Part shown: positions 1,375 through 33,459 of the stretch, piece after piece
Numbering within the stretch: the stretch's first letter is position 1
Layout of the letters: each line of letters starts with the position of its first letter
Assembly: GCA_037176725.1 (NCBI GenBank)
Contig: JAZBRS010000054.1
Span: 15,580,001 to 15,644,000, forward strand
DNA from: Posidonia oceanica
Lineage: Eukaryota; Streptophyta; Magnoliopsida; Alismatales; Posidoniaceae
DNA length: 64,000 nt
Direction of reading: 5' to 3'
Program-made: the position numbers and the translations under genes
Notes under the pieces: generated by a model
Databases searched by the model: none
What the model saw: the letters and a program-made list of their open reading frames with translations, nothing else
What the model was told of the DNA's origin: nothing

Positions 1375-2598
1375 GCTTGCATTCCGACTTTCGCTTCTGG
1401 CTTTCTCGCCGCTTGCATTTTGCATCCTCTCTTGCCTTCTGCTTTTGCATGCTTTGTATGTTTGCTTGCTTGCGTCTTTGCTTGCCTTGCGCTTTCGCCT
1501 ACCGCACTTGTTTGATCGCCTTGCTTGTTTACATGCTTTATTACTTGCTTTGCTTTTACATGCTCTACTACTTGCTTGTCTTTACTTATTTTATTTGCTT
1601 GCTCAGTCTTGCTTTATTTCCTGCATTATGCATGTCTAAATATCTATTTGACGCACCATGCATGCCTTTTGAGTGGTGAATACTTTCTTTTACACCAATA
1701 CTATGCCACTGCACATGCACATGCCATGTATTCCTGCTTTTTGATATGATAAGTGCTTTCCCTTCACTATCATGTCCACAGCATTAGCACATACCATGCG
1801 CATGCCTTTTACAATGATTTGTGTTGCTTGCTTGCCATGTTTAGGTGATTTTCTTCCCCTTTTGCACTTAGCCTAAGGACAATTAGAGCCTGATTGCCCC
1901 CACAGCTAACTAAAAATGGCAAGTAAAAAATAAACTCTAGGAGCAACTAGAGACTGCAACACACTTGCACCCCCCTTGAGTTAATAAAATGAGCAAGATA
2001 AAACTCGAAGCATTTGCATAAAGCATCATATAGGGCATGCATTCTTCTCATCTGAGTCCACCTACAGTCTGAGAAGGACAGTCCCGGTCTCTTGCTCCAA
2101 TGCTTTGGCATGACGCAAGTCAGTCGGTCTGTCTCCCCTTATCAGGGGTCGCATCGATGCTAGTGGAGGGTACCACCCATGCTTCTAGCAGGGTTGAGGC
2201 CACCAACGCACCACCCCGTCACCACCTGAGCTCTAGGCCAGGATTTAGACGTGGGACCTACTGTTTCTAGCCTGAGTCGGCAACCCGTACACCCGTGAGT
2301 GTCCGAAGTAGACTGCCTACTAGGACACACTAGATTGGTGAGGGAGAGAATGCTAGAAAGCATACATCTACATGCATGAGTTCTAACCCTTGCTTTTGTT
2401 TGCCTTGCCGTCACAGAGAGGTCAGTGAGCGAGTTCCTTAGCTGGAGCTCGAGTTCTTTCTCTTACTGACGCCCCTGTCGCGACACTTGTTCCCGACCAT
2501 CCTCTTCCGAGCTATTCGCCTTCGTGATAATAGCTCCTCGTAGGATTCGCCCTCTTGCTTCCTGCTGCAGCCTTGTTCTTACCCACTCATGGTCAACC
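1375..2598 (+). other. Element 0 untranslated leader
   Basis: Region between PBS and gag. The first part is pyrimidine-rich with repeated cttgctt/gcatgc words. Its apparent Leu/Cys-rich ORFs (around 1190-1680) are low complexity and not protein-like. A donor-like GAG|GTCAGT at 2421 aligns with CG|GTAAGT and CG|GTAAGC at the same place in elements 1 and 2. Nothing else is recognised. Confidence 0.6.
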
Positions 2599-5500: not shown

Positions 5501-5636
5501 GGCCGACATCACCTCCCATCTTAGGAGGGTTAAAGCAGACATTTCAATTTGGGACCTTATAAACTCCTCTTCTGAACACCGCGAGGTTTTCCTCCAAGTG
5601 TTCCAAGCAGCCCATGTGTCCTAAGCTATAGAACCC
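2599..5636 (+). pseudogene. gag: Element 0 gag (broken)
   Basis: Capsid-type Gag remnant. The start is set at ATG 2599 (accATGG, protein MAQ...) because the same MAQ start is conserved in elements 1 and 2. Recognisable blocks are the proline-rich N-terminus, a Retrotrans_gag-like core around 3460-4200 (FRDLYYFPEA, ADERLL, LTGPALKWFTSLDM, VESSLRSGNFPALS), a Ser/Asn-rich stretch near 4200, and the TRSGRVYKPP and KADISIWDLI motifs at 5310-5560. A +1 shift near 3735, a TAA near 3895, a TGA near 4017 and stops near 4480, 4684, 5262 and 5623 break the frame. The zinc-knuckle region near 4630-4680 is itself interrupted. It cannot make a full Gag. Confidence 0.85.
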
Positions 5637-5651
5637 GCAACCCCAGAAAGC

Positions 5652-6152
5652 ATGGTTAGCGTCATCGTGGAGCCCCAGATCATCTCTTTCACGAGCGATG
5701 AGCTGCCTCCGGCGGGGATTAATCACAACCAGCCCCTTTTAGTCACGGTGCAATACAAAAACTTCCGCATTCCCCTGTCGCTGGTTGATAATGGATCAGA
5801 CCTTAATGTCTGTCCCTTGGGCACTGCAACCAGGCTCGGATTCAAAGCCGAGGATATCACCCCAGCGATAAAGGGAATGATAGCTTTTAATAACACCCAC
5901 CAAGACACTCTAGGGATTTTGATTATTCCTCTCATCATTGGCCCAGTCACATTCGATGTGGAATTCTACATTGTCGACTTGGAGCCTAACTTCAATTTTC
6001 TGCTTGGGCGCCCTTGGCTGCATAAGCATCAGGTCATCCCCTCGACCCTCCACCGCATGATCAAGTTTCGCTGTGGCGACGATGTTATCATTGTCATGGC
6101 AAAAAACTTCGAGAAGGAGTGGATCGAGGTGGCTGCACCCATCTCTTCGTAG
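5652..6152 (+). pseudogene. Element 0 retroviral-type aspartic protease (fragment)
   Basis: Open for 166 codons. Active-site motif VDNGSDLN (about 5784-5807), the Tat-type DNGS form, is followed by LLGRPWLH (about 6001-6024), the usual flap-distal block of plant Ty3/gypsy proteases. It would have cut the Gag-Pol polyprotein. The frame ends at a TAG (6150-6152) where elements 1 and 2 have a glutamine codon, so this is a fragment of a longer frame. Confidence 0.85.
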
Positions 6153-8222
6153 ACTGTCCCTTTTGACCCTGAGCTTTCAGATGCTTTGTAACGAGTTAAT
6201 CGGTGTGAGTCGGTTAACTTTATACCCGATCTTGAACGCGTCAACTCCTTGGCCGTTCACAGCAACCCCATCCTGATGGTCGAAAACGTCTGTCACAGGT
6301 GGGGCTATGTCAAGGGAACGCCGCTCGGGCGATACGGCCAGGGAATCGCTGAGCCGATCAAAGCAGCAAAGCGAAGAGATTCCGAAGGACTCGGATATGG
6401 CCTGCAGTCCAGCAAAGATAGATGCATGTAGCCCAAGGATCAAAGCATCGCCATCCCGCGGGACCTCACTAACTTTACCAGTGCAGGTACCCTTGATTCA
6501 AGTAGCAGTGAAGTCACAGCATAGCAAGTGTCATGCCTGAGCTCTCCGCTGCCGACGGAAGAATGGGTCTACATTAAGGACTACTACTCAGATGAGAAGC
6601 AGTCTGGCATAGTTGAGGCAGCCCCAACCAGCAGTAAAGATCAACTCAGCGTGACAGCATGTCGGTCAGTTTGCTTGGCATTCACTGACGTAGCAGTAGA
6701 TTTAGTAGGCCCTGTGGCGAGATTGACAGTTTCTCCTCTTTCTGCAGTTTCACCAATGTCACAGACAGCCACAACAGCACCTCCGAGGTCAGGAGCATGC
6801 CCTCTGACACTGTCCAGCAATCCGCTTGTGGCCACAGCCGCACCAGCATGGAAATCACCTTCTCCGACGGTGCAGTCAGTCGGATCAGACAGCAGCGTGA
6901 CTCGGCCCGCATCATTGACAGTGCCACAAGCAAGCCAGGTGACTCTATCAAGCACACCGCTGTCAGCTTCAGTAGATCCCGCTTTGTGGAGGATTCTCAC
7001 CACCACTACTAGGAGACAACCACTGTCACCCATGGGCACCGGCGTTTTGTCCCCAAGCATAGCAGCCCAGCCATCGGTCTTCTGGAGGAGCACTTGTGCC
7101 TCCCCTCCAGCAGCAGCAGTGACCTTGGCAGCCTACCCAACAGCAGTAAAGCAGGTGCCCCAAGCAGCAGCAGGCCTAGCGGTCGCCCAAGAGCCAGAGG
7201 TCACCGTCACCTACTACATTGACTCTCCCTCAGATGAGGAGGAAGTAGCGGCTACAGAGGCTGAGGTTGACTTTGCGATGGGGGACTTGGAGCAGCTGTT
7301 CCAAGAGCAACTTCTGTCCCTGGCAGAGGACATTGTAGAATATCAGACAGCGAGGAAAGGAAAAGTCATGGTCACGGATCCCTCCCCGCAAAAGGACCAT
7401 GCCTCTATCATGGTCCTACAAGAGGATCTTGCAACAGCGACAACCACTAGACCGGATGAGCTGATCACCCTGCAGCCGGGGGGTGGGTCTAGATGGTTTG
7501 TGCAACGCATGCCCCACTCAGGCAGTGCAGCAAGCGGCAGTACACAGATCAGCCGCCTGCCTGACATATTCCCTGCAAGCACATCAGAAGCACCGCAAGC
7601 ATCAGCATGAAAAGCACCGCAAGCATCAGCATTAGAAGCACCGCAAGCATCAGCATCAGCAGCACAGCAAGCATTAGCACCCGCAGCATCAGCATCCGTA
7701 GCACAGCAAGCACAAGCAGTAGCACCGCAAGCAACCGCATGGCAAGCAACCGCACAACAAGCAACCGCACAAGCAACAACCATGTAGGCAGCAACAGCAC
7801 AGTCAGCAGTAGCACAAGCAGCAGTACAGATAACAGTGGCAGAGTCAGCAAAGTCAACAGCAGCAGAGCAAGCAGAGTAGGCAAAGCTGGCAGAGGAGAT
7901 TGCCAAGACAGAGGTCGCGCACCGAGGATACAGAAACACTCGGGTAAGCGTGACCATCCTGAAGCGTCACCAGGGCCAAGCAGCGGAACATTTGCACTCC
8001 TTCGATATCTCAGATCCCACTTTTGAGAAGGAGATCCTCTCAAAACTCATTGCATACGGAGAGGAAGATGATGCAGGCGAGGATGAGAATGATGAACCAT
8101 CACCTGAGTTCTAGCCCCACGACAACGATCTAGAAGGCCCCAACCTCCATGACGAAGAGCAGACAAAGGTTGTTAGTATCGGCACAGCAAAAAAAGCCAG
8201 AGAGGTCCGCATTAGCGCCCAT
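6153..8222 (+). pseudogene. Element 0 protease-RT linker region
   Basis: Homologous to the long linker between protease and RT in elements 1 and 2: WGYVKGTPLGR near 6302, the acidic DYYSDE motif near 6578, YIDSPSDEEE near 7216, DHASIMVL near 7400, and SVTILKRHQGQAAEHLHSFD near 7950. A 360-codon stretch (6528-7610) is open. The rest has stops near 7608, 7783, 7878 and 8112. Composition is Ser/Ala/Gln/Pro-rich, so it is probably a flexible spacer. I recognise no enzyme domain. Confidence 0.75.
7560..7880 (+). repeat. GCACCGCAAGCATCAGCA-type coding repeat
   Basis: Imperfect tandem repeats of gcaccgcaagcatcagca and shorter gcaagca/gcagca derivatives, encoding APQASA-like runs in the linker frame. 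The equivalent Ala/Ser/Glu/Gln-rich tract in elements 1 and 2 is also repetitive but made of different words, so this is a fast-evolving part of the linker. Confidence 0.7.
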
Positions 8223-8462
8223 TTGTCACCCCAGGCTAGAGCATACCTGAAGAAAGTGCGGCCTAGAAGCTTCCAGGCAGGGAATCTCATTCTCCGAGCC
8301 ATCCACCTGCCAAACGGTCGAGGCAAATTCCGACCCAACTGGCGCAGCCCCTTTGTGGTCAAGCAGGCATTCTCAGGCGGCGCAACAATTCTTGAGGACA
8401 TGGACCAGGTTGGGCAGTCAAAGCCGGTCAACGCATGCTACCTCAAGAAGTACTATCAGTAG
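8223..8462 (+). pseudogene. Element 0 integrase C-terminus fused to pre-RT linker
   Basis: Encodes SPQARA joined to YLKKVRPRSF, then GNLILRAIHLP, WRSPFVVKQ, LEDMDQV and LKKYYQ-stop: the SH3-like/GPF C-terminal domain of a Ty3/gypsy integrase. Compared with element 2, everything from just before RT to the end of the integrase core (about 3.0 kb equivalent) is missing. Both parents share GAGCA at the breakpoint, and the fusion stays in frame. DNA-binding C-terminus only; no catalytic residues. Confidence 0.85.
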
Positions 8463-9778
8463 TTCGGCCCTCGTCTTGCAGATCTCTTGATCCCTATCCT
8501 GTCCCTTAGCATTTCCACTCTCTGCACATCCTCATGCATCCCTTCTTGTTCTACTTCTTGCATTCATACCCCCGCATTTGTACATCTCCATGCATTTCTT
8601 TCTTTTCAAGCATATCCCATTCAAAAAAAAAAAGAAGCAAAAAGCAAAGCAAAAAAGCAAAAAAATCATCTTGCATTGCATTCGACCCGATGATGAAATC
8701 GGACGTGCTTGCCTGCTCTGGAAGGAGTTTACCCTGCCTCACCTGACACTACTTAGATGTCTTAGCTAGTGAGGGAGCCACCACTCAGTGAGAACAGGCA
8801 AAATATCCAAACCTCTTAGGACTTGCACCTCCCAAGGGAGATAAAATGCTAGGGTGTGAGCAAGAGCGTGAGCTATAAAAGAATATATGTCTGAGCATGG
8901 GCATAAAAGAAAAGAGCAAATAGAAGGCGAAGGCAGAAGTAGGCCCTAGAGATAGAGGCGTGCAGCGTAACCTCATCCCTCCAGTTTACCTTGGAGAGGA
9001 GTCGAAGTTCACACCTGGCAAACCTACAAATCCCGCAAGGTCTAGCCACCCCTGTCTAGCAAGCAGCTCCCCAACTTCAAACCAGGTGCCCATTACCTCC
9101 AAGTTAGGGATAGGGGAAACCTGCATGCCTATGAGGGAGCAAAAGAAGCAAAAAATGAAAAGAGTAGGTGTAGGTCCTTGAGAGTTTGGTATGGAGCCTG
9201 TCCTCACCACACCACAACCCAAGCACTGCAATAACTCTTCCTAGAGCGCCACCAGCAAGTTAGGAGTTTGAGTAGAGTTCAGTGAGTCAAGGACCCCTCT
9301 CTTCCCCTACAGCAAGCGCTAAGCACTCCATATGCTGAGGGCTACAGCATATCAAAATCATACATATACCTACTGCACAGCATGTCAAAAATCATGCATA
9401 TATCCACGCATATCAATCATAAATCATGCATGCATGCACAGCAGCAATCATTCCCCTTCTTCTATCATCCCGCCCTGCAAGGCTAAGCTCGGCACTGAGA
9501 CAGTACTTCTATCAACCACGCATCGACCTCCTTCAAGCTACGCTGGTCCAGAGCTCCGACCGGCCTTATCCTGCAGACAGAATTGCCTTGTTTGAATATG
9601 CTTAGTCCCTGCACTCTGAATGCTAACTGTTGAGCATGCTAAACTGCTTTGCTAGTCTCGAAATCTGCTTCTTTGTTAGCCAATGGTTACATGCTTGTAT
9701 CTGATCTGATAAATTGCAACCTTGGCTATAGGTACCTGAGGTTTCTGCACCAGCGGCCTGCATTCTCCCTCCCGCACA
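8463..9778 (+). other. Element 0 spacer between integrase and DUF7745-like ORF
   Basis: No protein-like frame. Holds an A-rich tract at 8625-8670 that matches, in orientation-corrected position, the T-rich tracts at 21580-21705 and 47340-47490 of the other elements. The last 50 bp contain the acceptor-like ctatag|GTACCT at 9730-9731, 47 nt before the next ATG. Confidence 0.6.
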
Positions 9779-9952
9779 ATGGGTTATCCTACTCTGGTCA
9801 CCCCGATGCACTGCTCGGATGCCCTGCGAAAGTGGATTGGCAAGCTCACTGAAGCTGACCGCGAGAAGCTGCGCACATGGGGCATTCCATCCAAGCATCT
9901 GAAGGCCACTGATGTTGAAGTAAGCCAGCATCTCCTGTGCGCTGCTGCAAGG
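9779..9952 (+). pseudogene. Element 0 DUF7745-like ORF, interrupted by element 1
   Basis: Starts MGYPTLVTPMHCSDALRKW and runs to ...LLCAAAR, matching residues 1-58 of the 400-aa ORF of element 1 (MGFPTLLTPAHCSEALREW). Homology stops exactly where the TGTAGCG terminus of LTR A begins at 9953; the frame then reads into LTR sequence. The five bases before the LTR (caagg) are the expected target-site duplication. The remaining ~340 codons should lie to the right, outside the window. Confidence 0.85.
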
Positions 9953-10060
9953 TGTAGCGATCCCGATCGGAATCAGGCTCGCTAGATTTAGCGGCGATTG
10001 GATCCGAGAAAGAGGCTCAACTCGAAAACACTTGAAATCGAGGAGAAAAAGGAAAGATAA

Positions 10061-10078
10061 GACAAATCAGAGTCGCCA
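10061..10078 (-). other. PBS-like sequence inside U5 of LTR A
   Basis: Minus strand reads TGGCGACTCTGATTTGTC. Its first 11 bases are identical to the real PBS core. Copies lie at the same LTR position in B (29715-29732), C (36700-36717) and D (58228-58245), and in element 0 at 1191. Confidence 0.7.
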
Positions 10079-10624
10079 CCATGTCTATTAACGGGAGACA
10101 AGGAAAACCGGGGGAAATGCGTGAATTAACGCGCAAAACCAAGCAAGAAATGCAAAGCAAAGCAATGCAAAGGAAAACAAATGCAAACAAATGCAAATGA
10201 GATGACTCTAGCCTAGGATAAGGGCAGTATGGTCATTGCGGGCCAGAAGACAGGGCAAGGACTCCTGTTACGCGCGGGGAAGGTGTTAGGCACCCCCAAC
10301 ACGCCCGAGAATCGGTCTTTCTAGGCTTACGCTCGCATACGCAGGTAAATGCAGGATTGAATGCCTATGTGCCTATAAATGCCTAAATGAATGCTCAAGG
10401 TGTGCTCTAAGTGGGAAGAAACAAAGTAAGGAAGTAAACGTGCTCTCTAAGTGCTCAGCTACGCTGTCCGTATTCCAAACTAGGCGAAACCTAGCTCGTG
10501 AGAACTCCAGACAGTAAGCATCACAGCCCTATATGCACATGCAGGCGAAAAAACGAAACGGCGAGAAAACCATGCAATGCAATCGACATGCAAGGGAAAA
10601 CGGCGTAAAATACGCAAAACGAGG

Positions 10625-10865
10625 CGAGAAACAAGAAAGGCACACGGAACGGAGCAAAAGAACAAAACCGGCACGCAAAACAGGCGGGAAAGCAAGGCAA
10701 CACGTAAAACGAGACAAGGAAGCAAAGAGGCACGCAAAACGGTGCAAAAGCGAGAGCGGGACGCAAAACAAGCGAGAAAGCAAGGCAGCGCGCAAAACAA
10801 GGCAAGAAAACAGAGAGGCACGCAAAACGGTGCAAAAGCGAGAGCGGGCACGCGAAACGGTGCCA
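10625..10865. repeat. 90-bp tandem repeat in LTR A
   Basis: Unit of about 90 bp built from acgcaaaac, gcgagaaagcaaggcag and gaaagcgagagcggg words. Because the length is a multiple of three and stops are rare, several frames on both strands stay open (Cys/Phe-rich on minus, Lys/Arg-rich on plus); these are not convincing genes. LTR B has about one unit fewer, LTRs C and D about two more. Confidence 0.8.
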
Positions 10866-12616
10866 AAACAGCGAAGCAAAAACCTCGGAAAAGCCATGCG
10901 AATGCAAGAATGCAGAAAAGATCAGAAGAGGCCAAAGGGGAGGCAAAACAACGCGTGTGTAAGAACAGACGTCGTTTAGGACCGCTCAGAGTAGGTGTGA
11001 AGGCCTACGGGGGGGAGAGTGTGCAAACGGAGGGATTACCACTTCTTGGCGACTGTTTCCCGCTAAACCGTTCCACGGTGTGTCTCGCACGCTGCCCAAA
11101 GCTCGCGATGCGATCGGATCGTGGAAAAGGGGGAAAAAAGTCACATTAAGTGGCAAATCCAAGGAAAACTCAACACAAAACACACAGGGATACGCGAAAC
11201 GAGGATTTGGAGATAGAAGTAGAAAGGGGAGGCCCTATTCTACATGCTCAAAGAGACAGAAAGCGAAAACAAGGAAAACTGCGCAAATGGCATGCAAATG
11301 AATGCAATGCAGGGGTTCAGGAGGACATACCTGGAAATCCGGGAGCCTGATCTGAAATCTGTCTGGTCCATGCTGAAGAGCGCTTCGCTGCGGTCGCCTG
11401 GGCAGCTTACTTGAGAAGATCCAACGGCCGGATTGGAAGATATTGCAGCTTCAAAGCAGAAGGGCCAGAACAGGGGAGAAGAACAGATCTAGGTGTTTAG
11501 GAGGTCCTAGGGATGTGCAAAAGGTCCTCCCAAGTGAAAGGGAGCTAAAAGTGCTTGGTGTGTGCAAAAGGATGCTAGAATGCAAGACTAAATGAATGCA
11601 GGATGCATGCAAAAGCAAGAACAAGCAAAGAGAAGAAACTGGGAAAAGCCAGGAGTTCAGAAAGCATTTTGAAAAAGAAAAGGGGCTAAAATGCAAATTT
11701 TCACAAAAAGATGGAGTCCACAGGAAAGGGTTTTGAAAACAGGAGAGGGCGGGGCTTTATTTTGCAAAAGACTAAACTCAGAAAGTTGTTTTGAAAAGAG
11801 GGTATGCTTTAGAAGAGGTTTTGAAACCAAAAAGAAGTCAGAGTGCAATTTTGGAAAAACTGAGGTCTAAGATGCAAATTTTCCAGAAAACAAGATTCTG
11901 GGGAGTCTGAGAATGCAAGTGGAGGGTCTACATGCAATTTGGTAAACATAGGAGCTAAGATGCAACCTAGGGGCAAAATGGTCTTTTCACATGATTTTTT
12001 AAAAGATGCAAGGACCTATGTGTGATTTTTAAATCATGCAGGGGTCAAATATGCAATTTTATATGGAAAACATGCTCTGAAAAATAAGGGACAGGACTAC
12101 AGTGCAATTTTTAAAAAGAACAAGGTCAAAAATGCAATACAATAAGCTAAAAATGCATGCAAGAGTTACTGTCCATTTAAAATGGACCTAAATGCAAATA
12201 TGAAAAATCAGAGGGAAGGAAATGCAATGCAGTATGCAAAATAAGAAAATAAAAGCTAAGTTCCTACAGTGCATGGACCTACATGCAAAAACAAAAACAT
12301 GCAGGGGGCCAGAATGCAATGCAATATGGCAAAATATATGCAAATAAATGAACTGATTATGAGCAGGACTTACATGCAAAAATCGAAAGTAGAGGGGCTA
12401 AAATGCAAAATATTATAACAGCACAGTACAGTAACAGGACTAAAAGGCAAATACTGAAAAGCAAGAATAAAAGTTGCAATTTAGCATGGTATTTAATTAA
12501 AAACTAAGCACATTAAATGGCAGAAGGACTGAAATGCAAAAATTAAAAAACTTAAACCAGATCTGTAATATTTACACCTAAAACTATATAACAAAAGAAA
12601 TAAATGAATAGTGCTG

Positions 12617-12670
12617 GCCGGCGGTGGCTGGCACTGTAGCAGTGAGCCACCGGCGCTTGCCACCACCGGC
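12617..12670. repeat. GC-rich hairpin in LTR A
   Basis: Arms GCCGGCGGTGGC (12617-12628) and GCCACCACCGGC (12659-12670) pair with one mismatch, with an inner CACTG-tag-CAGTG hairpin. The homologous site in LTR C (39435-39489) has different but again complementary arms. Confidence 0.7.
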
Positions 12671-14299
12671 ACAGGAGGGCTGCGGGCGTCCGGACCGGCG
12701 GAGAACGACGTCGGCGATTGTGCAGAGCTCCGGGGATCGACTGGAGACCGCTCTGCTGGCCGGAGCATCCAGAGATCAAGAGACCGGCGCCGGAGAAGAA
12801 GAGAAGACCGGCGAGTTGCAGACGGAGCTGGAAGGCTCGGAATCCGGTTCTGACCGGCGGAGAAGCAGGAGGAGGAGGAGAGAGAGCAGGGGAGGGCGAG
12901 ACGTACCTGCGGTGGCGTCTGGAGAGTGCTCCCGACCTCGGCAGGGTCGGAGCCGGCCGGCGGTCCTCGTCCGGTCGCTACGGTGGATGCTGGCGGCTCG
13001 CGGTGGTCGGAACGCCTTCAGGACGAAGCTCCGGAGCTTCCCAGACGATCAGGCGAGGCTTCTGCGGCTCGAACGGAGGAATGCAATTTATGGGTTGTCT
13101 GTGAGCTGCCGGAGGCCGGGGGAGCGGTCTGTTGCTCCTTGGCTTGGCTGGAGTGCTCCGGGGGATTGCTGGAGTGCTGGCGGAGAGGTTTGAGTGCTTT
13201 GGAATGGGTTCTGGTGCGAGTGGAGAGGAATTGGAGGTTCGGGCTGGTTTCTGTCAGAAATAGGGCAAGGTGTTTGTGGTGTGGCTTAAGACTTGTGGTG
13301 GATGAGAAGGTCTGATGGCTGGGGCTTTGGAAAGGTGGAGGATAGGTGAGTAGCTGGGTGTAGTTTAGGAGGATGCTGTGGATTGTGGAGAAGGGAATTA
13401 TGGAATGGGTTCAGTTGGGTTGCAGATGGAAAGTTAGGTGGTCCGAGGGCAGTTTTGTGGGTGGAAAGGCTGGGAAATGATGAAGGGAAATGGCTGTGTG
13501 TTGGGTGAAGTTGGGGGAGTAATTGGGAGGTGGATGAAGGCCGGAAAGGGATTTGGTTTTCTGGAAACGAAAGAAGGAAGTTTTCTGAAGATCTCAGAGG
13601 GAATTGGAGGAGGATTGGGCGTGGGAATTGGGCTGAGACTGAGGCTCCTCTCCGGGATGCTGGAGACTCCCTCAAACACTCTCTTCTGCTCTCTCTTCTC
13701 TCTGGAATTGGAAGAAATGCAGAGGAGAAGGAAGGAATGCACAGGTGGGGAAGAAGTTGGAAATTCTGGTTTGGGGATTGCTCTCTCACTCTCTGGTTCG
13801 CTCTTGCACTGTCACACTTGCTTGCTCTGGCTTGCTCACACTCCGGCTCTGTCTAGTGCTCTGGATTGAAGGGAGGACGGGAGGCTTATGAATGAGGAGC
13901 TGCTGCTGCTGGGCGCGAGCTGAGAATTCAAACTCGGCCAGCGGTTACTGCAGTGGAGGGGACGGGGCGACCGGCTCCGGATTTGGTGCTGAGATGGAGG
14001 AGACGGCGAGCTGCTGTAGATTGACACGACGGAGGCTTGAATTTCGAATGAGGAGGGAAGGCTGTTGCAGCTGGCTGCGGGAGAAACGCTGAAAAAAAAT
14101 GCAGAAGGAGAAGGAGGAAGAAGGAGGGGCGGGCTGGACTGTGCTGTGGGCCGAGAAAAAGGAGGAAAAATTGAAGGAAAAAAGGGAATGGGCCGACGGG
14201 CCCAGAAAGGAAAAGAAAGAAAGAAGGAAAATAAGAAAGAAAGAGGGGGGGAAAAGAAAGGGGAAATAAAATTGGTAAAAAAGAACTAAAAATAAATAA

Positions 14300-15060
14300 A
14301 AATACTGGGGAGGTTGTGATGTAGATTAGGATTTTAATTAAGTTTTTTAATGGCCATTTTGGGTTGATTAATGTGTTTTGGGCTTGATTAGGGTTTTAGG
14401 GTTTTGGTTTTGCTTTTAATTGGTTTTCACTTGATTAAATGTGTGTCAAACCTTTTTTAAATTGTTTTAAAAATCGAATTTCTCTTTTTGGACACTTAGA
14501 ATATTGATTAGGATTTTTTTAGGATTTATTTCGTATTAATTAGGGTTGGTTTTAGGTTCTTAAGTTTTAGTCTTCTTAGGGTTTTTTTCTTTCTTAAGTC
14601 TTTTAAGTTATGTTTTGATTTTTATTTGTTGATTTTTCTTGAAGTTTTTAGTTGGATTTTTCTGGTTTGATAGGATGTTTTTAAGTCTTTCAGATCTGTT
14701 TTTATTTTCTTTTTTAATTAAGTTTTTAACTTGTTTTTCTTATGCTTATTAGGTTAAGTCTTTTGCCTTCTTTAATTACTTGTTTTAGTGTTTGGTTTTT
14801 AATTCTTCTTTTTAGGGTTTGTTTTTTAATTCTTTTCGTGGGGTTTTTACTTTTGCTGGGTTTAGATCTCATTTTAGTTTTTTCCTTGATTTTTCAGTGT
14901 TTTATTTTGATTTGTTTTGCATTTTTTAGCTTGCATGTTTGGTTTTCCTTTTAGCTTGATTTAGTTAAGTTTAAGTTGTTAATTGCTTGTTTAATATTTT
15001 TTAATTGTTTTTCTTAGGGTTCTGATTTGTTTATTTTATGTTTTGAGGTTTTACAGATTT
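14300..15060. repeat. T-rich low-complexity tract of LTR A
   Basis: Dominated by gttttt/taagttttt/agggttttt words on the plus strand (A-rich on the minus strand). Equivalent tracts: B 33880-34620, C 41140-41910, D 62670-63430. No frame above background. Followed at 15070-15360 by purine-rich sequence with GA dinucleotide runs. Confidence 0.75.
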
Positions 15061-15753
15061 TTATGGGTTTTTGTGGATTTTTGCAAAGGAGAGAAAAGGA
15101 AAAGAGAAGGAGGAAAGAAATGGAAAAAAGAGGGAGATAAAAGGAAAAGAGATAGGTTGGAGGAAAACGATTTTTAAAATTCAGAAAAAGTGTTAAAAAT
15201 AAAGTAAAAATAGGGATAAGATAGAGGAACGATAGAAGCACAGAGGGAGCCCACAGCCAGACCAGAAAAAGGATGAGAAGGGGATGAAAAGAGAGATGAT
15301 AATCAGGAGAGAGAGAGGAGAGAGAAAACGATAATCTCGGAGAGAGAAAAGGATAATTTGGGTGAAAGAGGGTCTTAATGGTCTTGGAATGGGGTGAGAA
15401 TTGGTGAGTGGGTAGTCTAGGGTTTGAAGTCTTGGTTCTGAAGTTTTGGTTCGATTCTAAGGAGGTTTTGGAAGGGTTTCAAGGTGTAGAAAAAGGGTAG
15501 TTTCACCTAAGTTTTCTAGGGTTTTTGGGAACGGGTTAGGTTTGGAAATTTCTAAGTTCTTGGGTAGGTTTGTTGGGTGGATAGTGGTGGATTTTCCTAT
15601 GGTTTTTTGTTAGGTTTTGAGGTTGGGAAGGGGGGCAAAGGTTTAGGTCAAAACAGGCTGATTTTGGAGGGTAAAGAGGAGGATTAGGGTTAGGATTTGG
15701 TTGGGGTTTGATCCAGCAATCACCAAGAGGGCTCCAAGGGTCCAAGCCTGCCA

Positions 15754-15837
15754 AGATGGGGTGTCAACAGATGCCCCTCCCTGAGCGAGGGCAAGCGGAG
15801 CGCGGCCGCTGCTCAGGGTTGACAAGACACCCCATCT
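15754..15837. repeat. Imperfect inverted repeat in LTR A
   Basis: AGATGGGGTGTCAAC (15754-15768) pairs with GTTGAC-AAGAC-ACCCCATCT (15818-15837) except for a 5-nt bulge. The loop holds smaller palindromes (ccctccctgagcgaggg, gagcgcggccgctgctc). Conserved at the same place in LTRs B (near 35320-35403) and C (near 42602-42685), so it is probably a functional or structurally stable U3 element. Confidence 0.65.
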
Positions 15838-16323
15838 GACTGGCGGGAGCAGCGGGTTGCTATGGGCGTGAGCTACTTATTCGGCGGATGCACCGAAGAT
15901 CGTAGCCCATTGCCGCAATGCAAGATGCCAGTGCAGATGGATGCTGTGCCGTGTGTATGCGTGCTGATGCGAGTGCAATGCAAGAGTTAGTATGAAAGTT
16001 AGTGCAGCTATAAGAAAATGCTGGTGCTGTGCAAGTGATACTGATGATGCTAAAGTGATATGCAGTGCTAGCTAAGAAAGTGCTGAGATGATGCAGAAAA
16101 AATGATAAAAAGGCGCGATGTGGTGCGAATATCTGGCAGGGAGGTCAGACTTGCACGACAAAGTGAAGGAAAACAGGGTGCAGCTGGTCCCCGCCCGGGG
16201 AGCAAGCTAGCAGAGAGAAGAGAAAGGGGCGCGAGGGGAGAGAGGCCAACTCCCCTATCGCAGAAAGGGGGTGCGTGACTTTGTCTTCCTGGGACAAGGT
16301 CACGCCGAAAAGGGAAAAAAAAT

Positions 16324-17400
16324 GATAAGGTGACGGGCTTATCGTCCGGATAGTTTACGGTCCTATCAACCGGGAGTGACAGTTTACGGTCCTGTCAACC
16401 GGAGGCAGTTGTGAGTGATAGTTACTGGATATCAGCCGTATAACATGGTTGTGGGATAGTTTACAGTCCTATCAACTGGCGGATAGTTTACAGACCTATC
16501 AACTGGAGGATAGTTTACAGACCTATCAACTGGCGGATAGTTTACAGACCTATCAACTGGAAGCCACAAACCATGAGGGATAGTTACTGGATATCAGCCG
16601 TATAATGCAATGCCGGATAGTTTACAGTCTATCATCTGGAGCGACAGTTTACGGTCCTGTCAACCGGCGAGTAGTTTACAGACCTATCAACTGGAGGATA
16701 GTTTACAGTCCTATCAACTGGAAACGGCATTGCGAGGGACAGTTACTGGATGTCAGCCATATAACATGATTGCGCGTGGTAGTTTACAGTCCTACCAACT
16801 GGCGGATAGTTTACAGACCTATCAACTGGAGCGACAGTTTACGGTCCTGTCAACCGGCGGATAGTTTACAGACCTATCAACTGGAAACGCGCAATGATGA
16901 GGGATAGTTACTGGATATCAGCCGTATAATGCAATTGCTGGTGATAGTTTAGGAATATCAGCCTAGCGACAGTTTACGGTCCTGTCAACCGGTGGATAGT
17001 TTACAGACCTATCAACTGGAGGATAGTTTATAGTCCTATCAACTGGAAACCGCAATTGCAAGGGACAGTTACTGGATGTCAGCCGTATAACGTAATTGCA
17101 CGCGATAGTTTACAGACCTATCAACTGGAGCGACAGTTTACGGTCCTGTCAACCGGTGGATAGTTTACAGACCTATCAACTGGAAAAGTGCAATTACGAG
17201 GGACAGTTACTGGATGTCAGCCGTATAACACAACTGCGGGCCAACCATGGATCGACCAGAATATAGTTTAGGAATATCAGCTTGAGATAGTTTCGGATAT
17301 CAGCCTAGCACGAGTGATTGATAGATGATAGTTTAGGAATATCAGCCTGAGATAGTTTCGGATATCAGCCTAGCACGAGTGATTGATTGATTGATAAGAG
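16324..17400. repeat. Hierarchical hairpin array in U3 of LTR A
   Basis: About 1.1 kb of small hairpins such as GATAG-tttacagac-CTATC and GACAG-tttacggtc-CTGTC, grouped into five blocks. Each block is bounded by its own inverted pair: 16444-16454/16564-16575, 16607-16614/16726-16733, 16769-16777/16887-16895, 16930-16938/17052-17060, 17091-17101/17188-17198. All lie within an outer pair, GCAGTTGTG 16405-16413 and CACAACTGC 17229-17237. LTR C has only the outer pair and one inner unit (43251-43298). Confidence 0.85.
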
Positions 17401-17459
17401 GGGGCAAGATCATGATGAGAATGATAAGATATCGGACTTATCGGCCGGCAAAGAGGGGA

Positions 17460-18090
17460 TGAGGTAATGATGAGAAGTTGAGCTAAAGAGGGGGATGAGA
17501 GCATGATGAGAAGCTAAGCTAAAGAGGGGGATGAGATCATGATGAGAAGTGAAGCTAAAGAGGGGGATGAGATCATGATGAGAAATTAATCTAAAGAGGG
17601 GGATGGGATCATGATGAGAAGTTAATCTAAAGAAGGGGGTGAGATCATGATGAGAAATTAAGCTAAAGAGGGGGGTGAGATCATGATGAGAAATTAAGCT
17701 AAAGAGGGGGATGAGATCATGATGAGAAGCTATGCTAAAGAGGGGGATGAGATCATGATGAGAAATTAATCTAAAGAGGGGGATGAGATCATGATGAGAA
17801 ATTAATCTAAAGAGGGAGATGAGATCATGATGAGAAATTAATCCAAAGAGGGGGATGAGATCATGATGAGAAGTTAATCTAAAGAGGGGGATGAGATCAT
17901 GATGAGAAGTTAATCTAAAGAGGGGGATGAGATCATGATGAGAAGTTAACCTAAAGAGGGAGATGAGATCATGATGAGAAATTAATCTAAAGAGGGGGAT
18001 GAGATCATGATGAGAAGTTAATCTAAAGAGGGAGATGAGATCATGATGAGAAATTAAGCTAAAGAGGGGGATGAGAGCATGATGAGAATG
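17460..18090. repeat. 36-bp tandem repeat array in U3 of LTR A
   Basis: About 17 copies of a 36-bp unit (atgagatcatgatgagaa followed by gttaatctaaagaggggg and variants). The unit contains the self-complementary ATCATGAT. As 36 is a multiple of three, the minus strand stays open for 239 codons (12-aa repeat LIPLFRLTSHHD); I treat that as a by-product. Flanked on both sides by GATAAG-atatcgga-CTTATC hairpins. Confidence 0.9.
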
Positions 18091-18299
18091 ATAAGATATC
18101 GGACTTATCGGCCGGCAAAGAAGGGACAAGGGAATGATGAGAATGATAAGATATCGGACTTATCGGCCGGCAACGAAGGGATAAGAGAATGATGAGAATG
18201 ATAAGATATCGGACTTATCGGCCGGCAAAGAAGGGATAAGGGAATGATGAGAAGAAATCATCCCATGGTGCCAGGAACGTCATAGGGGAAAGAGGGAAA

Positions 18300-19260
18300 G
18301 AATGATACCACGGGGCGATCAAAAGATGCCCCTGGTGTCGGGATGACACCAGGGGTTGGCCAGCGCGTCCATGGCATCGAAAGCAGAGAGTGATGACAAG
18401 AGTGTCGTGCTTGTCAGACGAGTAGTTTGGGGTACCAGCCCGCAAGGGACTCAGCTGAGGGCGATCAGCTGGGGACTCAGCTGGGGATGACCAGCCGAGA
18501 AGAGTGTCAGGTTGACGGACCTTTCGTCGAGCAGTTTGGGGTGCCAGCCCGCAGAGATAATGATCCAGCTGGGGGCGACCAACTGGGGACTCGACTGGGG
18601 ATGACCAGCCGAGAAGAGTGTCAGGTTGACGGACCTTTCGCCGAGCAGTTTGGGGTGCCAGCCCGCAAGGGACTCAGCTGGGGATGATACCACAGGACGG
18701 CCAAAAGATGCCCTTGGTATCAGGATGATACCAGGGGATGGCCGATGCGCCCCTGGCATCAGGATGCAAAGATAGGTAAGCGAGTGGATGGATGATAGGT
18801 TGACGAACCCATCGCCGAGCAGTTTGGGGTGCCAGCCCGCAAGGGACTCAGCTGAGGATGAACAGCTGAGGAGGATGACAGGTTGACGGACCTTTCGCCG
18901 GGCAGTTCGGGGTGCCAGCCCGCAAGGGACTCAGCTGGGGATGATCAGCTGGGGATGATACCACAGGGCGGCCAAAAGATGCCCCTGGTATCAGGATGAT
19001 ACCAGGGGATGGCCGATGCGCCCCTGGCATCAGGATGCAAAGATAGATAAGCGAGTGGATGGATGATAGGTTGACGAACCCATCGCCGAGCAGTTTGGGG
19101 TGCCAGCCCGCAAGGGACTCAGCTGAGGATGAACAGCTGAGGAGGATGACAGGTTGACGGACCTTTCGCCGGGCAGTTTGGGGTGCCAGCCTGCAGAGAT
19201 AGTGATCCAGCTGGGGATGACCAGCTGGGGACGCCGGACGGCGGAGCTTGGTGTCACGGG
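18300..19260. repeat. Compound hairpin repeat array in U3 of LTR A
   Basis: Alternation of two cassettes. The first has AGGT-tgacgg-ACCT plus GGCA-gtttgggg-TGCC hairpins followed by cagcccgcaaggg. The second has long inverted repeats CCCCTGGTGTC/GACACCAGGGG (18329-18355) and CCCCTGGTATC/GATACCAGGGG (18982-19008). The array leads to the inferred U3 start of the element. Confidence 0.8.
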
Positions 19261-19322
19261 CCCGCAGATGCTCTGGGCCCCGGATTGGGTGCTGAGGACT
19301 TCGCCGCGTTGGGATGTCTGCA

Positions 19323-19505
19323 AGTCTGATTAGAGGGCCCAAGATAATGATGATGATGATATGCAATGCAGCAAAGAGTCTTGGTGTGCAAACAGAAAGC
19401 AGAAACAGTTTCCATTGATATGATCTTGATAAGTACAATGCCTGCGGTAGGCCAGAAATGTACAGCACAATTTGAAAGAAGACCACATGATGGTCGCACA
19501 AGGGC
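19323..19505 (-). other. 3' untranslated stretch of element 1
   Basis: Lies between the stop of the DUF7745-like ORF and LTR A. A polypurine tract would be expected on the minus strand immediately before the LTR; none is obvious (minus strand reads ...gggccctctaatcagact then tgcagacat). Contains a short gat trinucleotide run near 19350. Confidence 0.55.
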
Positions 19506-20708
19506 CTAGTCAACCCGAGCCTTCTTCGGCTGCCTGGAGTCGGGGAATAAGGGGCCGCCTGGCGGAATTTCAGTAATTGGCCAGAGCCGTCGGACTTCAA
19601 CTTCATAATCAGGAGTGCATCCTGTACCTCTCACAGCTGCAATGTCTGTAGATTGGACCCCATGCTGCATCAGACTAGCAAGCTTCTTGGTTGGGGCAGT
19701 GGTGCTGAGAGGATAAGTCTGTAGAAGCTCGGGCGTTGTACTGTCAATGAAGGCGCCCTGCTGGAAGCCGAACTGGCGCATGACCCTGATTGGTTGGTAC
19801 TCTACGCCTGCTGTGAAGCCCGGAAGAATGATCAGCCGCGTGTCACGCGCGCTGAAGAAGATTGTGAATGGCTCTGCTGCAGAGGGAATGATGCGCCAGA
19901 TCACAGCGTCGTCAGTCAGTGCTGACAGCCTCTCATATTTGTCTTTGACGCTCTTGTCTGCTCTGGTACGGGCGCTGCTACAGTAAGCTTCGAAAGCATG
20001 CACTTGAGGACGCAGAAGGTCCATCTCTAAGTGCGCGGTCAGCCAGACTTGTATGAGTGCTCCGCAACCGTGGAAGTGGCGGCAGCGATGAGAAATGCGG
20101 TCCAGCCCGCGATAAGTCTCTGCCAAGACAACTGGTGCCAGATCTATGTGCTGGGTCACCACAGCTAATGCAATCTCTGCGACCTCGATGGCCACTGTCA
20201 GTCGGCCATGAGTAAAGATTAGTTTGCCCAGAAAGCGGATGACGAATCCTCGGAGCCACAGCTCGTCTCCGAGGTCAGCACGCTTGTTCATGATATCATC
20301 AAAGTGTGCAAGGCGAAGCATAGACTCTGGTCCACTGGTGCAGATTAGCTTCTGTTGGCAGTCTTGAGTGGAGAGCCCAGTCAGTTGGCTCAGGACCCGG
20401 AGATATCTGTCGCGCCTCATAAAGACAGGCGGCCCCATGATCTTTGAAAAGCCGCAGATCCGACGCACCTCTTCCAGTGTAGGTGTCAGCTCAGCTTTGT
20501 TGAAGCGGAAGACATGATGCGCCGGCTTCCAGAATCTTGCGGCGGCACACAGAAGGTGGCGGCTGACCTCCACATCAGCAGCCTTTAGCAGCTTGATTGG
20601 TATACCCCACAGGCGCAACTTTTCGCAGTCTTGTTGTGTGAGCCTGCTGATCCATTCTCGCAGGGCTTCCGAGCAATGTGCAGGAGTCAGCAGAGTAGGA
20701 AAACCCAT
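19506..20708 (-). CDS. DUF7745-like retroelement protein, element 1
   Basis: 400 codons from ATG 20708 to TAG 19506-19508, intact. It resembles the plant retroelement-associated DUF7745 (plant-mobile-domain-like) family as I recall it: N-terminal FWKPAHHVFRFNKAELTPTLEEV near residue 60, an LAETYRGLDRI motif near 195, HGCGALIQVWLTAHLEM near 215, and IIPSAAEPFTIFF followed by a Gly-rich VMRQFGFQQGAFI block near 285-330. No signal peptide or membrane segment is seen. It lies downstream of integrase on the sense strand, 50 nt after an acceptor-like ACAG|GTACCT at 20758, so expression from a spliced subgenomic RNA is possible. Function is not known to me. Long open frame in an element whose RT is deleted. 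The start is supported by the same MGFPTL/MGYPTL start in all three elements. Confidence 0.8.
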   Translation of the reverse strand: MGFPTLLTPAHCSEALREWISRLTQQDCEKLRLWGIPIKLLKAADVEVSRHLLCAAARFWKPAHHVFRFNKAELTPTLEEVRRICGFSKIMGPPVFMRRDRYLRVLSQLTGLSTQDCQQKLICTSGPESMLRLAHFDDIMNKRADLGDELWLRGFVIRFLGKLIFTHGRLTVAIEVAEIALAVVTQHIDLAPVVLAETYRGLDRISHRCRHFHGCGALIQVWLTAHLEMDLLRPQVHAFEAYCSSARTRADKSVKDKYERLSALTDDAVIWRIIPSAAEPFTIFFSARDTRLIILPGFTAGVEYQPIRVMRQFGFQQGAFIDSTTPELLQTYPLSTTAPTKKLASLMQHGVQSTDIAAVRGTGCTPDYEVEVRRLWPITEIPPGGPLFPDSRQPKKARVD

Positions 20709-20757
20709 TATACTTGATTGCAGAAGACAGTCTGATTACTGCAAGGCTTGAAGGTAC

Positions 20758-22224: not shown

Positions 22225-23124
22225 CTACTGATAGTACTTCTTCAGATAGCAGAGGTTGACGGGCTCAGACTGCTCGACCTAGTCCATATCCTCAAGGGTT
22301 ACAGCGCCTCCCGAAAAGATCTGCTTGACCACAAAGGGGCCACGCCAATTGGGACAGAATTTCCCTCGACCGTCAGGCAAATGAATGGCGCGCAAGACAA
22401 GGTCCCCTGACTGGAAGCTACTGGGCTGGACCTTCTTCAAGAATGCTCTGGCCATTCGTTTCTGATAGCAGTGAGCGTTGTGCATGGCTTGCAATCTGTG
22501 CTCATCAATTAGGTTCAGTTGGACGCAGCGGTCTTCGACCCATTCTGCTTCTTCCAACTCAGCTTCCCGCAGGATTCGCAGAGAGGGGATCTCCACTTCA
22601 ACAGGTAACACCGCTTCCATGCCGTACACCAGAGAGTACGGAGTGGCTCCTGTAGAGGTCCGGATTGATGTCCTGTACGCCCAGAGCGCGTACGGGAGCT
22701 TGTCGTGCCAATCCTTGTGGGTTTCTGCCATTTTCTTTAGGATCTTGACAATGTTCTTGTTTGCAGATTCCACTGCTCCATTCATCTGAGGCCGGTAGGG
22801 CGAGGATCGATGATGCTTGATCTTGAGACTTTGCAGGTATTCTTCGATCCTTTTGGCAATAAAGTTTGAGCCGTTATCAGAGATGATAGAGTACGGGACC
22901 CCATATCGGGCAACAATATTGTTTCTGATAAATTTTTCTGTTGCCGCAGCGGTGACTGTCCTGTAAGAGGCTGCTTCCACCCACTTGGTAAAGTAATCGA
23001 TCGCTACCAGAATGTAACGATGACCATTCGAAGCAGCAGGGTGGATGTCGCCGATGACATCGATCCCCCAGGTGGAGAAAGGCCATGGAGAAGACATGTT
23101 GTGCAGCTGATGTGGAGGGGCCTT
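22225..23124 (-). pseudogene. Element 1 integrase, N-terminally truncated
   Basis: Retains the catalytic core (GIDVIG near 23058, ISDNGSNF near 22867, and NGAVESANKN carrying the Glu near 22765, giving D, D, E) and the C-terminal domain (SFQSGDLVLRAIHLP, WRGPFVVKQ). The zinc-binding HHCC part seen in element 2 is gone, cut at a deletion junction near 23124-23130 that is out of frame with the upstream linker. A TAG at 22279-22281 replaces a CAG 18 codons before the normal end (LKKYYQ, stop at 22225). It cannot be made as part of the element 1 polyprotein. Confidence 0.85.
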
Positions 23125-23130
23125 GATGAT

Positions 23131-25172
23131 TCCGCTGCTGAAATTGCTGACTGTTCTGCTGCTGAGGTTTTCCGTTCAGTTACTGCTGCTGCATGAATTG
23201 CTGATGCTTCCCCTTCTGGGTCTTCTAGTGTGCCTGGGGAGGATATGCCGGACTGGCGGCTGATCTGAGCACTGCCGCTCGATATACTGCTCAAGTGAGG
23301 CGTGGGTTGCACAAACCACCTAGACCCGCCTTCTGGTTGAAGAATGATGAGCTCATCTGGTCTAGGGGAGTCCGGCGCTGCTGAGTCTTCTAGGACCATG
23401 ATAGAAGCATGGTCCTCTTGCAGAGGAGGATCCGTAACTACGGCTTTTCCTTTCCTTTCTGCAGCTTGATGCTCTGCCAGGTCTTCTACTATCGACTTGA
23501 TCTGTTCTTGAAAGAGTAGCTCTAAGTCGGACATCCAGGAATCGACCTGGGCTTCTATCGCCACTCCTTCTTCTTCGTCTGAGGGGGAGTCGACGTAGTA
23601 GGCGCCGGGGGCCTGCGGCACTGGCCCGGCTGTAAGATGGATCGCTACCCTTGGAGTCTGCATGATCTAGTTCACGGGTGCGTCCGCTGATGGCAGTTCT
23701 GATGTAGAAGGCCCAAACAAACAAGTCAGCGGTGCTACTGATGAATAAGCTTCCAGGGTCACTCCTGGAGAATAAGCAGGGGTGCTCTTCGAAGGGCTCA
23801 AGGGCCCGGAGAATGTAGTGCTCAGTTGGCCTTTTGTATCGGGCCGTAACTGAGAGAGCGCAGCCTCTGACGCCATAGGGTCTTGCCATGAGAGCTGCTG
23901 CAGGTTGTCAGGAGAATGCGGAGCGGACTGCGCCGGCTGCATTCCTGAAGATGATGCTGAGGGAGCGGGCTGGGCCACGCTGCTGACTGAACTGATGGAC
24001 TGCCCCTTCAGAGATGGGGGCAGTGGCACTGATATGTTTGTGACCGCTGGTAGCATACTTGGTTCTGCCAAGAGGAGTGTCTTTGTCTCCTGCACTGCTG
24101 CTGACTGTTCCTGAGGGGCCGATGTGGCTGCTGAAGGATGGGAACTTGAATCTGCCACAGGGCCTGCTGAGCTGCCTGCTGTTTCTGCCAGAGGGAGAGC
24201 TGAATAAATTGACTGTGGGGCCTCTGCTCTGACCACTGTTTCTGCTGAGTTGATTGGGACTGCCTCTGTTGCATCAGACTGCTCCTCATCCGAGTAGTAG
24301 TCCTCAATACACACCCAATCCTCTGCCGGCGCTGTGGCTTGGTAATCGGTTGATCCCAGAATTCCTGCACTGGTAAAGTTAGTGAGGTCTCTGGGAATGG
24401 CTGGCGCATGCGCTTTGAGCTGGAAGCAGTGATCTTCGTCGAGCTTTGGTTCGTAGCCGAGACCTTCAGACTTCCTTCGCTCCACTGCTACGATCGGCTC
24501 CGCGATCCCTTGGCCGTGACGCCCGAGCGGCGTACCCTTGGTGTAACCCCACCTGTGACATACGTTCTCGACCATTCGAAAGGGGTTATTGTGAACGGTC
24601 AAGGAGTTGACACGTTCAAGGTCAGGAACGAAGTTAACTGGCTCGCACTGGTTAACGCGATATAGGGCTTCAGAAGTCTCAGGGTCAAATGGGATAGATT
24701 GCGAAGACACGGGAGAGACTGCTTCGATCCGCTCCTTCTCAAAGTTCTCCGCCATGACGACAATGACATCATCGCCACGACGGTACTTTATCATTCGATG
24801 GAGGGTCGAAGGAAGGACCTGATGCTTGTGGAGCCAAGGGCGCCCAAGCAGAAGATTGAAGTTAGGCTTCAAGTCGACGACATAGAATTCTACGTCGAAG
24901 ACGACCGGACCGATAGCCAGAGGGATAATCAGAATCCCTAGAGCGTCATGGTGAGTGTTGTCAAAAGCAGTCATTCCCTTCACGGCTGGCGTGATATCCT
25001 CGGCTTTGAATCCGAGCTTGGTTGCTGTACGCAAGGGGCAGACGTTAAGGCCTGACCCATTATCAACCAGCGTTAGGGGAATGCGAAAGTTTTTGAACTG
25101 CACCGTGACGAATAGGGGCTGGTTGTGATTAATCCCCGCCGGAGGCAGCTCATCGCTCGTGAAAGAGATGAC
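23131..25172 (-). pseudogene. Element 1 protease and protease-RT linker
   Basis: Same frame as gag. Protease motif VDNGSGLN (about 25047-25070) and LLGRPWLH near 24845; then the WGYTKGTPLGR and acidic DYYSDEEQ motifs and a long Ser/Pro/Ala-rich linker with YYVDSPSDEEEG and DHASIMVLE. The frame is interrupted only by two TAG codons: 25173-25175, which ends gag, and 23667-23669 inside the linker. Both stand where element 2 has CAG. The linker runs into the RT deletion near 23130. The protease domain itself is open. Confidence 0.8.
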
Positions 25173-32600: not shown

Positions 32601-33453
32601 AGCTTCCCAGACGATCAGGCAAGGCTTCTGCGGCTCGAACGGAGGAATGCAATTTATGGGTTGTCTGTGAGCTGCCGGAGGCCGGGGGAGCGGTCTGTTG
32701 CTCCTTGGCTTGGCTGGAGTGCTCCGGGGGATTGCTGGAGTGCTGGCGGAGAGGTTTGAGTGCTTTGGAATGGGTTCTGGTGCGAGTGGAGAGGAATTGG
32801 AGGTTCGGGCTGGTTTCTGTCAGAAATAGGGCAAGGTGTTTGTGGTGTGGCTTAAGACTTGTGGTGGATGAGAAGGTCTGATGGCTAGGGCTTTGGAAAG
32901 GTGGAGGATAGGTGAGTAGCTGGGTGTAGTTTAGGAGGATGCTGTGGATTGTGGAGAAGGGAATTATGGAATGGGTTCAGTTGGGTTGCAGATGGAAAGT
33001 TAGGTGGTCCGAGGGCAGTTTTGTGGGTGGAAAGGCTGGGAAATGATGAAGGGAAATGGCTGTGTGTTGGGTGAAGTTGGGGGAGTAATTGGGAGGTGGA
33101 TGAAGGCCGGAAAGGGATTTGGTTTTCTGGAAACGAAAGAAGGAAGTTTTCTGAAGATCTCAGAGGGAATTGGAGGAGGATTGGGCGTGGGAATTGGGCT
33201 GAGACTGAGGCTCCTCTCCGGGATGCTGGAGACTCCCTCAAACACTCTCTTCTGCTCTCTCTTCTCTCTGGAATTGGAAGAAATGCAGAGGAGAAGGAAG
33301 GAATGCACAGGTGGGGAAGAAGTTGGAAATTCTGGTTTGGGGATTGCTCTCTCACTCTCTGATTCGCTCTTGCACTGTCACACTTGCTCACTCTGGTTCC
33401 GCTCACTCACACTGGTTCCGTCTGGCGCTCTGGATTGAAGGGAGGACGGGAGG

Positions 33454-33459
33454 CTTATA
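33454..33459 (-). promoter_or_regulatory. Candidate TATA box of LTR B
   Basis: Minus strand catTATAAGcctcc, followed by CT/GA-rich sequence typical of plant 5' leaders. The same position is TATAAG in LTRs C and D but CATAAG in LTR A. Start site not shown. Confidence 0.45.

Follow-up and report, generated by a model that had tools for sequence, protein, structure and literature searches.

Why would a plant retrotransposon keep a nested palindrome whose arms change from block to block and still pair? This question is raised by an array at positions 16405-17237 of a 64,000-nucleotide stretch of Posidonia oceanica DNA (the window, to which all coordinates refer). A preliminary description of the array proposed that pairing rather than sequence is maintained. 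It named three candidate roles: a fold that the genomic RNA adopts at its 3' end, a cruciform, or a hairpin from which small RNAs derive. We consider it probable, though well short of certain, that the 3' array consists of H-type pseudoknots in the element RNA, part of them set in five blocks inside one outer inverted repeat, and that it is likely kept by selection. The case is built on one element family and on the copies in this window.

We examined the elements around the array. The window holds several Ty3/gypsy elements, and those surrounding the array lie on the minus strand. Pfam searches of the window found gag, G-patch/aspartic protease, RT/RNase H and integrase, then an ORF with a plant mobile domain (PMD) downstream of integrase. 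The gag, protease, RT, RNase H and integrase domains follow the gypsy order on a single strand, as expected of Ogre; the protease matches fall slightly under the Pfam cut-off. In element 1, the integrase core is at 22279-23175 (minus strand, PF00665) and the sense PMD ORF at 19506-20735 (minus strand, PF10536, E 5e-22). In element 2, RNase H and integrase have an additional RNase H domain between them (RVT_3, 49263-49610, minus strand, PF13456, E 1e-17); none was found in the two ORFs scanned in element 1. An extra RNase H between RNase H and integrase is the position described for Ogre and Retand, and a PMD ORF is reported in 57 % of Ogre elements (PMC6317226). The PMD ORF and the position of the extra RNase H lead us to call the element Ogre-like; by domain content, it appears to be an Ogre-like Ty3/gypsy element (Tat clade) on the minus strand. 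PMD homologues in the protein collection number 16, encoded on contigs no longer than 2185 bases, and integrase and PMD queries found no relatives among viral contigs.

We took LTR bounds from self-comparison (A, B, C and D) and from TG...CA ends. LTR A, the 3' LTR of element 1 in the RNA sense, spans 9953-15769 on the minus strand and has TGTAGCG...GTGTCAACA ends. LTR B lies at 29607-35337, LTR C at 36592-42617, and LTR D runs from 58120 to past the window end. The 3' region of element 1 (15770-19505) contains the five-block array, which therefore sits between the PMD ORF and the 3' LTR. The array had been assigned to the U3 of LTR A, but that LTR stops at 15769 and the array begins about 640 bases beyond it, so its place is the 3' region and not U3. 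The 3' region of element 2 is at 42618-45347. A third, at 35338-36591, follows LTR B and is interrupted by LTR C: 285 bases of the usual 3' region lead into a diverged part with Y1/Y2 units that is cut by LTR C, apparently in a nested or tandem arrangement with LTR B in common. A related plus-strand element at 1511-9952, 72 % identical over 1511-6487, is apparently cut by LTR A.

A separate structure spans the LTR boundary. A hairpin at 15754-15837 (minus strand) reaches from the beginning of U3 into the internal region, of which it takes in the final 68 bases. Its arms (15754-15765 and 15826-15837) form a perfect 12-bp inverted repeat, AGATGGGGTGTC / GACACCCCATCT, with a further GC-rich stem inside. 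The segment GGGAGGGGCATC at 15770-15781 (minus strand), read off the sequence within this hairpin, is a candidate polypurine tract, which we take it to be from its position adjoining the 3' LTR. The hairpin is present in all three copies (15754-15837, 35322-35405 and 42602-42685), and the 121 nt that span it (15740-15860) fold at -61.6 kcal/mol.

The palindrome words described earlier, for the outer arms and the five blocks, are all present at the positions given for them. The outer stem pairs 16405-16413 with 17229-17237 (9 bp). Six copies of the separator GAYAGTTACTGGATRTCAGCCRTATAA lie between and around the blocks, the first at 16417-16443 (minus strand) and the others at 16579-16605, 16738-16764, 16903-16929, 17064-17090 and 17202-17228. 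The blocks are likewise given on the minus strand, and every one holds three or four units. Block 1 (16444-16578) is closed by 16444-16454 / 16564-16575 (11 bp, one bulge) and contains four P units starting at 16455, 16482, 16509 and 16536. Block 2 (16606-16737) is closed by 16607-16615 / 16725-16733 (9 bp) around four P units (16616, 16643, 16670, 16697), and block 3 (16765-16902) by 16765-16777 / 16887-16899 (12 bp, one G.G mismatch) around another four (16778, 16805, 16833, 16860). The stem of block 4 (16930-17063) is 16930-16941 / 17050-17060 (11 bp, one bulge); this block contains one Q1 and three P units (16943, 16968, 16995, 17022). Block 5 (17091-17201) has the stem 17091-17101 / 17188-17198 (11 bp) and three P units (17104, 17132, 17159). 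The small hairpins inside the blocks are of the GATAG, GACAG and GGTAG types, as previously listed, but the list was incomplete: block 4 also holds one GATA-GTTTAGGAA-TATC unit. A further hairpin, GCGTGAC-tTTGTC...GACAA-gGTCACGC, lies just outside the array at 16273-16305 and is identical in element 2.

The reduced second copy noted previously is that of element 2, which has just the outer stem with a single separator (43251-43298). Hence the five blocks are either an addition to element 1 or a loss from element 2. Block arms have a mean identity of only about 51-52 % between different blocks, against 95 % for the separators. The order of units fits a duplication of two blocks (2-3 to 4-5), but interior identities (0.92 for blocks 1 and 3, 0.88 for 2 and 4, 0.74 for 3 and 5) do not single out the pairs 2-4 and 3-5. 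We rejected tandem duplication alone, which would yield equal and not private block stems. A coding role for the repeat was also rejected: no sense ORF of at least 60 aa lies between 16395 and 17409, where plus-strand ORFs of 61-95 aa are present. For the 3' repeats of Tat elements in general, a proposed origin is abnormal strand transfer (PMC7004042). From that literature and the conserved separators, we infer that the array would have grown by duplication or template switching at the separators during reverse transcription.

We tested the partnership of the arms by permutation. When the six left arms were combined with the six right arms, their own pairing ranked first of 720 permutations, at -92.7 kcal/mol against -82.3 for the next best. 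When the letters of the right arms were shuffled 2000 times, the own pairing was never reached (best -42.4 versus -87.6). The border words are thus complementary in private pairs, as had been suggested, and their own pairing beats all 719 others.

We compared unconstrained MFE folds of 16340-17240 as sense RNA, plus-strand RNA and DNA, in which the stems total 63 pairs. The sense (minus-strand) RNA recovers 60 of the 63 pairs with all six stems present, the DNA 56, and the plus-strand (antisense) RNA 42, without the outer and block 1 stems. Folding energies rank differently. The sense RNA is only modestly stable (z -1.7, with 1 of 20 shuffles as good), the plus-strand RNA is more extreme (z -2.6, 0 of 20), and the DNA is the most extreme of the three (z -4.9, 0 of 20). 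The DNA result is in keeping with a copying process, in which one hairpin arm templates the other during reverse transcription or replication and the fold is kept without function. Such a process would also suit block stems that are near-perfectly Watson-Crick even though their arms diverge far more than the separators do. Some stems are imperfect, which copying would not predict. We regard copying as an unlikely account of the array as a whole, while copying or repair may still account for the block stems. The plus-strand energy, for its part, is what one would look for in a structured plus-strand (antisense) transcript or in a hairpin giving rise to small RNAs. The stems are short and interrupted, however, and the plus-strand fold is the one that loses the outer and block 1 stems.

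Nested pairing leaves the small hairpins insecure. Over 16400-17240, the intended nested fold without the additional helix S1 (described below) has an energy of -174.8 kcal/mol, 65 above the MFE of -239.7, and 84 of its 180 pairs are also in the MFE. This overlap and this gap indicate that other pairs largely replace the small hairpins unless S1 pays for them.

The preliminary description missed a further level of pairing. Most small hairpins, read in the RNA sense, have a word upstream that pairs with the hairpin loop. Word and hairpin together give the layout of an H-type pseudoknot, with two interleaved helices in the order S1a S2a S1b S2b. In the RNA sense (minus strand), S1a has 3-4 nt (CGGU, CAGU), L1 1-2 nt, S2a 4-6 nt and L2 0-2; S1b lies in the loop (ACCG, ACUG), and L3, of 2-5 nt and mostly A-rich (UAAA, UCAA), precedes S2b. 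An example is CGGU-U-GACAG-G-ACCG-UAAA-CUGUC, which changes in step to CAGU-U-GAUAG-G-ACUG-UAAA-CUAUC. A like layout recurs in different sequences: CGG-CC-GAUAAG-U-CCG-AUAU-CUUAUC, GGG-CU-GAUAG-CCC-UAA-CUAUC, CGGG-CU-GGCA-C-CCCG-AAC-UGCC and UCGU-C-UGACAAG-C-ACGA-CACU-CUUGUCA. On this model, the element RNA would fold as H-type pseudoknots.

We took a census of such units by similarity to 15 hand-picked seeds, allowing at most 25 % edits, with seeds and parse made by eye. The three 3' regions of the window contain 83 units (50, 8 and 25), 34 of them distinct; the units are copies of one another, so these counts are not independent. A run of three or more Watson-Crick pairs in S1 is present in 26 distinct units (of 34) and 66 copies (of 83); an S2 run of four or more pairs, G.U allowed, occurs in 26 and 69. 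Fewer than three Watson-Crick S1 pairs are found in eight distinct units and 17 copies (Y1', Y1b, N'', M19173, Q1', Q2, SEP and SEP2); two of these eight gain a third pair through G.U. The separators have a weak S1, with two pairs in six of seven copies, and S2 is broken in the N family.

Units also occur beyond the palindrome. Three pseudoknot-type units lie outside the outer stem at 16324-16402 (minus strand), and units Q1, Q2 and K lie beyond it on the other side, at 17263-17448 (minus strand). Units K, T, M, N and Y1b, of like layout, occupy the part of the 3' region that is upstream in the RNA sense (18090-19193, minus strand). The third 3' region has eight Y1/Y2-type units after LTR B at 36326-36516 (minus strand), and that of element 2 has 25 units at 43170-45011 (minus strand). 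A hairpin at 18329-18355, 18711-18737, 18982-19008 and 44800-44826 changes in step between CCCCTGGTATC/GATACCAGGGG and CCCCTGGTGTC/GACACCAGGGG; its copy at 18711 has one mismatch. Among the units runs a 36-bp tandem repeat (17450-18088, about 18 copies; 43511-44008, about 14) in which we saw no pseudoknot by eye. The exact P-unit pattern had no match in viral contigs and one in genome contigs, in a methanogen, which is about the chance level by our own estimate. Rfam gave no match in 15700-19500.

We tested whether each upstream word fits its own loop better than the loops of other units. When S1b was swapped among the 34 distinct units, none of 20000 swaps was as good. When each of the 13 families was represented by a single unit, 66 of 20000 swaps were as good by Watson-Crick pairs and 147 of 20000 when G.U was counted. 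Loop swaps in free register, run on 32 of the 34 distinct units (all but N' and Q1''), gave an S1 energy sum of -101.8 versus -168.9 for true partners, and none of 5000 did as well. With a single unit from each family, 6 and 3 of 5000 did so for the two choices of M unit. The mirror control, which pairs the loop with the downstream flank, was nearly empty at only -5.3. We also chose hairpins blind to S1. In the arrays, 23 of 47 hairpins, a set that takes in neighboring registers of one hairpin, had an S1 upstream at or below -4 kcal/mol (mirror, 3 of 47); in the rest of the window 15 of 136 did (mirror, 13 of 136; Fisher 2e-7). Both helices and the block stems are complementary, and their partners belong together.

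The P family (22 copies, 8 distinct) allowed a column-by-column comparison. Its seven unpaired columns are all invariant, and only paired columns vary. In the predicted register, 93 % of cells are paired, compared with 24-49 % in slid registers. S1 pair 2 and two S2 pairs, three pairs in all, have changed on both sides. Of 500 shuffles, 5 matched the covariation score, and no slid register did. Other measures separated less well: both-side changes were reached by 28 of 500 shuffles and cells paired by 22 of 500, and the number of pair types (4, against a shuffle mean of 4.7, reached in 500 of 500) was not above shuffles. The earlier proposal that pairing rather than sequence is kept finds support at several levels.

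These results bear on whether the array is an ordinary set of Tat/Ogre 3' minisatellites, by-products of abnormal strand transfer whose pairing reflects a constraint on sequence, such as protein-binding sites with complementary halves. Such arrays are described as common in Tat elements (PMC7004042, PMC3305785, PMC11963269), and the very constant loops would suit conserved sites. Constant sites, however, do not predict variable positions in partner columns, and private block stems are not predicted either; we consider this reading quite improbable, more so than copying. Copying in turn meets its main difficulty in S1, which crosses S2 and, at 3-4 bp, is probably too short for templating but still follows its partner. 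This short crossing helix leads us to disfavor a pure DNA or copying process. We rejected a cruciform as the main explanation, since the crossing helix cannot form in one. As roles, a cruciform and a simple siRNA hairpin leave the interleaved second helix unexplained, and the best of the three candidates is that the genomic RNA folds near its 3' end.

We examined which strand would carry the fold. A geometric H-type scan, which counts each repeat many times and was compared with 4-10 shuffles per region, found 24 sites on the RNA strand of 16300-17400 versus 4.6 in 10 shuffles, and 12 versus 3.3 on the other strand. LTR A and coding sequence were at background, and 15770-16300 gave 4 versus 2.3. 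The RNA strand exceeded the other in the third 3' region and in element 2, whereas the strands were nearly equal in 17400-19500 (25 on the RNA strand, 22 on the other). One-sided changes over distinct units numbered 2 G.U and 11 A.C in S1, and 6 G.U and 3 A.C in S2. They show no RNA-sense G.U excess across both helices, a result that would also be expected of copying, and we dropped G.U bias as proof of strand because the counts point both ways. Read on the plus strand, the 11 sense-strand A.C mismatches of S1 become G.U pairs, which favors an antisense transcript. By the rule for which loop crosses which groove of an H-type pseudoknot, however, the loop lengths suit a knot only in the RNA sense; in the opposite sense, 1-2 nt would have to span a 4-6 bp stem on the shallow-groove side. 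We therefore regard a small-RNA hairpin or antisense transcript as very unlikely, the least probable of the readings considered. The favored reading remains a set of pseudoknots in the sense RNA, and we infer that selection keeps the fold of the array.

We compared the units to known pseudoknots. A short L1 of 1-2 nt is known in pseudoknots, and the CPK-1 class combines it with an S2 of 6-7 bp (PMC3835772). As parsed, L1 is 1-2 nt in all 34 distinct units, but S2 is 6 bp in only 11 of 34, so that the units would work like CPK-1 but are not filed there. The upstream pseudoknot domain of TMV is likewise a series of consecutive pseudoknots in the 3' UTR of a plant RNA, where it is said to be structure and not sequence that counts (PMC4683447). 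By that account, TMV has three knots beside a tRNA-like structure, whereas the regions described here have 8 to 50 units each, in the RNA of a retroelement. ARAGORN found no tRNA or tmRNA gene in the window, and the Rfam search reported above likewise offered none in its interval; viral tRNA-like structures may escape both.

The closest relatives by position are the 3' UTR repeats of Tat-clade elements (Ogre, Retand, and the Gmr9/GmOgre minisatellites of soybean), which likewise lie between the coding region and the 3' LTR, are tandem, comprise several interleaved families and vary between elements (PMC7004042, PMC3305785, PMC11963269). The available descriptions present these repeats as of unknown function. 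The words hairpin, secondary structure and pseudoknot are absent from the main text of PMC11963269, as are hairpin, palindrom- and secondary structure from the available text of PMC7004042. Among the open-access matches listed, judged by titles and abstract openings, none reported a pseudoknot array in the 3' region of an LTR retrotransposon.

What might such an array do? We conjecture that it could be a platform offering many sites to a protein with a role in the export, protection or packaging of unspliced genomic RNA. The idea of export comes from the structure and the kind of element, which recall the musD MTE and the IAP RTE of mouse, likewise structured cis elements of LTR retrotransposon RNA; the MTE combines a pseudoknot with a kissing loop (PMC12786077, PMC5767303). 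Those are one element each with a tested export function, whereas the present array has many repeats, and a role comparable to the IAP and musD transport elements is conjectured from position and analogy. Introns are described in few plant elements, of which Ogre is one (PMC12786077). A role in stability or packaging is, in our conjecture, as possible as export.

Many plant elements carry Tat-clade 3' repeats, from which satellites arise (PMC7004042). In Ogre, the hypervariable 3' repeats have so far been viewed as by-products of replication and as seeds of satellite DNA. We tentatively suggest another possibility, of which we are much less confident than of our reading of this array: these repeats may be a modular RNA architecture, in which tens of H-type pseudoknots sit on orthogonal private stems, grow by cassette duplication at separators and form a multivalent platform for protein. 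If Tat-clade 3' repeats are pseudoknot arrays under selection, the question of why elements keep kilobases of repeats beside the 3' LTR becomes directly testable. Part of plant satellite DNA would, if this is true, be fossil RNA structure, and the private block stems would show that orthogonal stem design occurs naturally in a repeated RNA.
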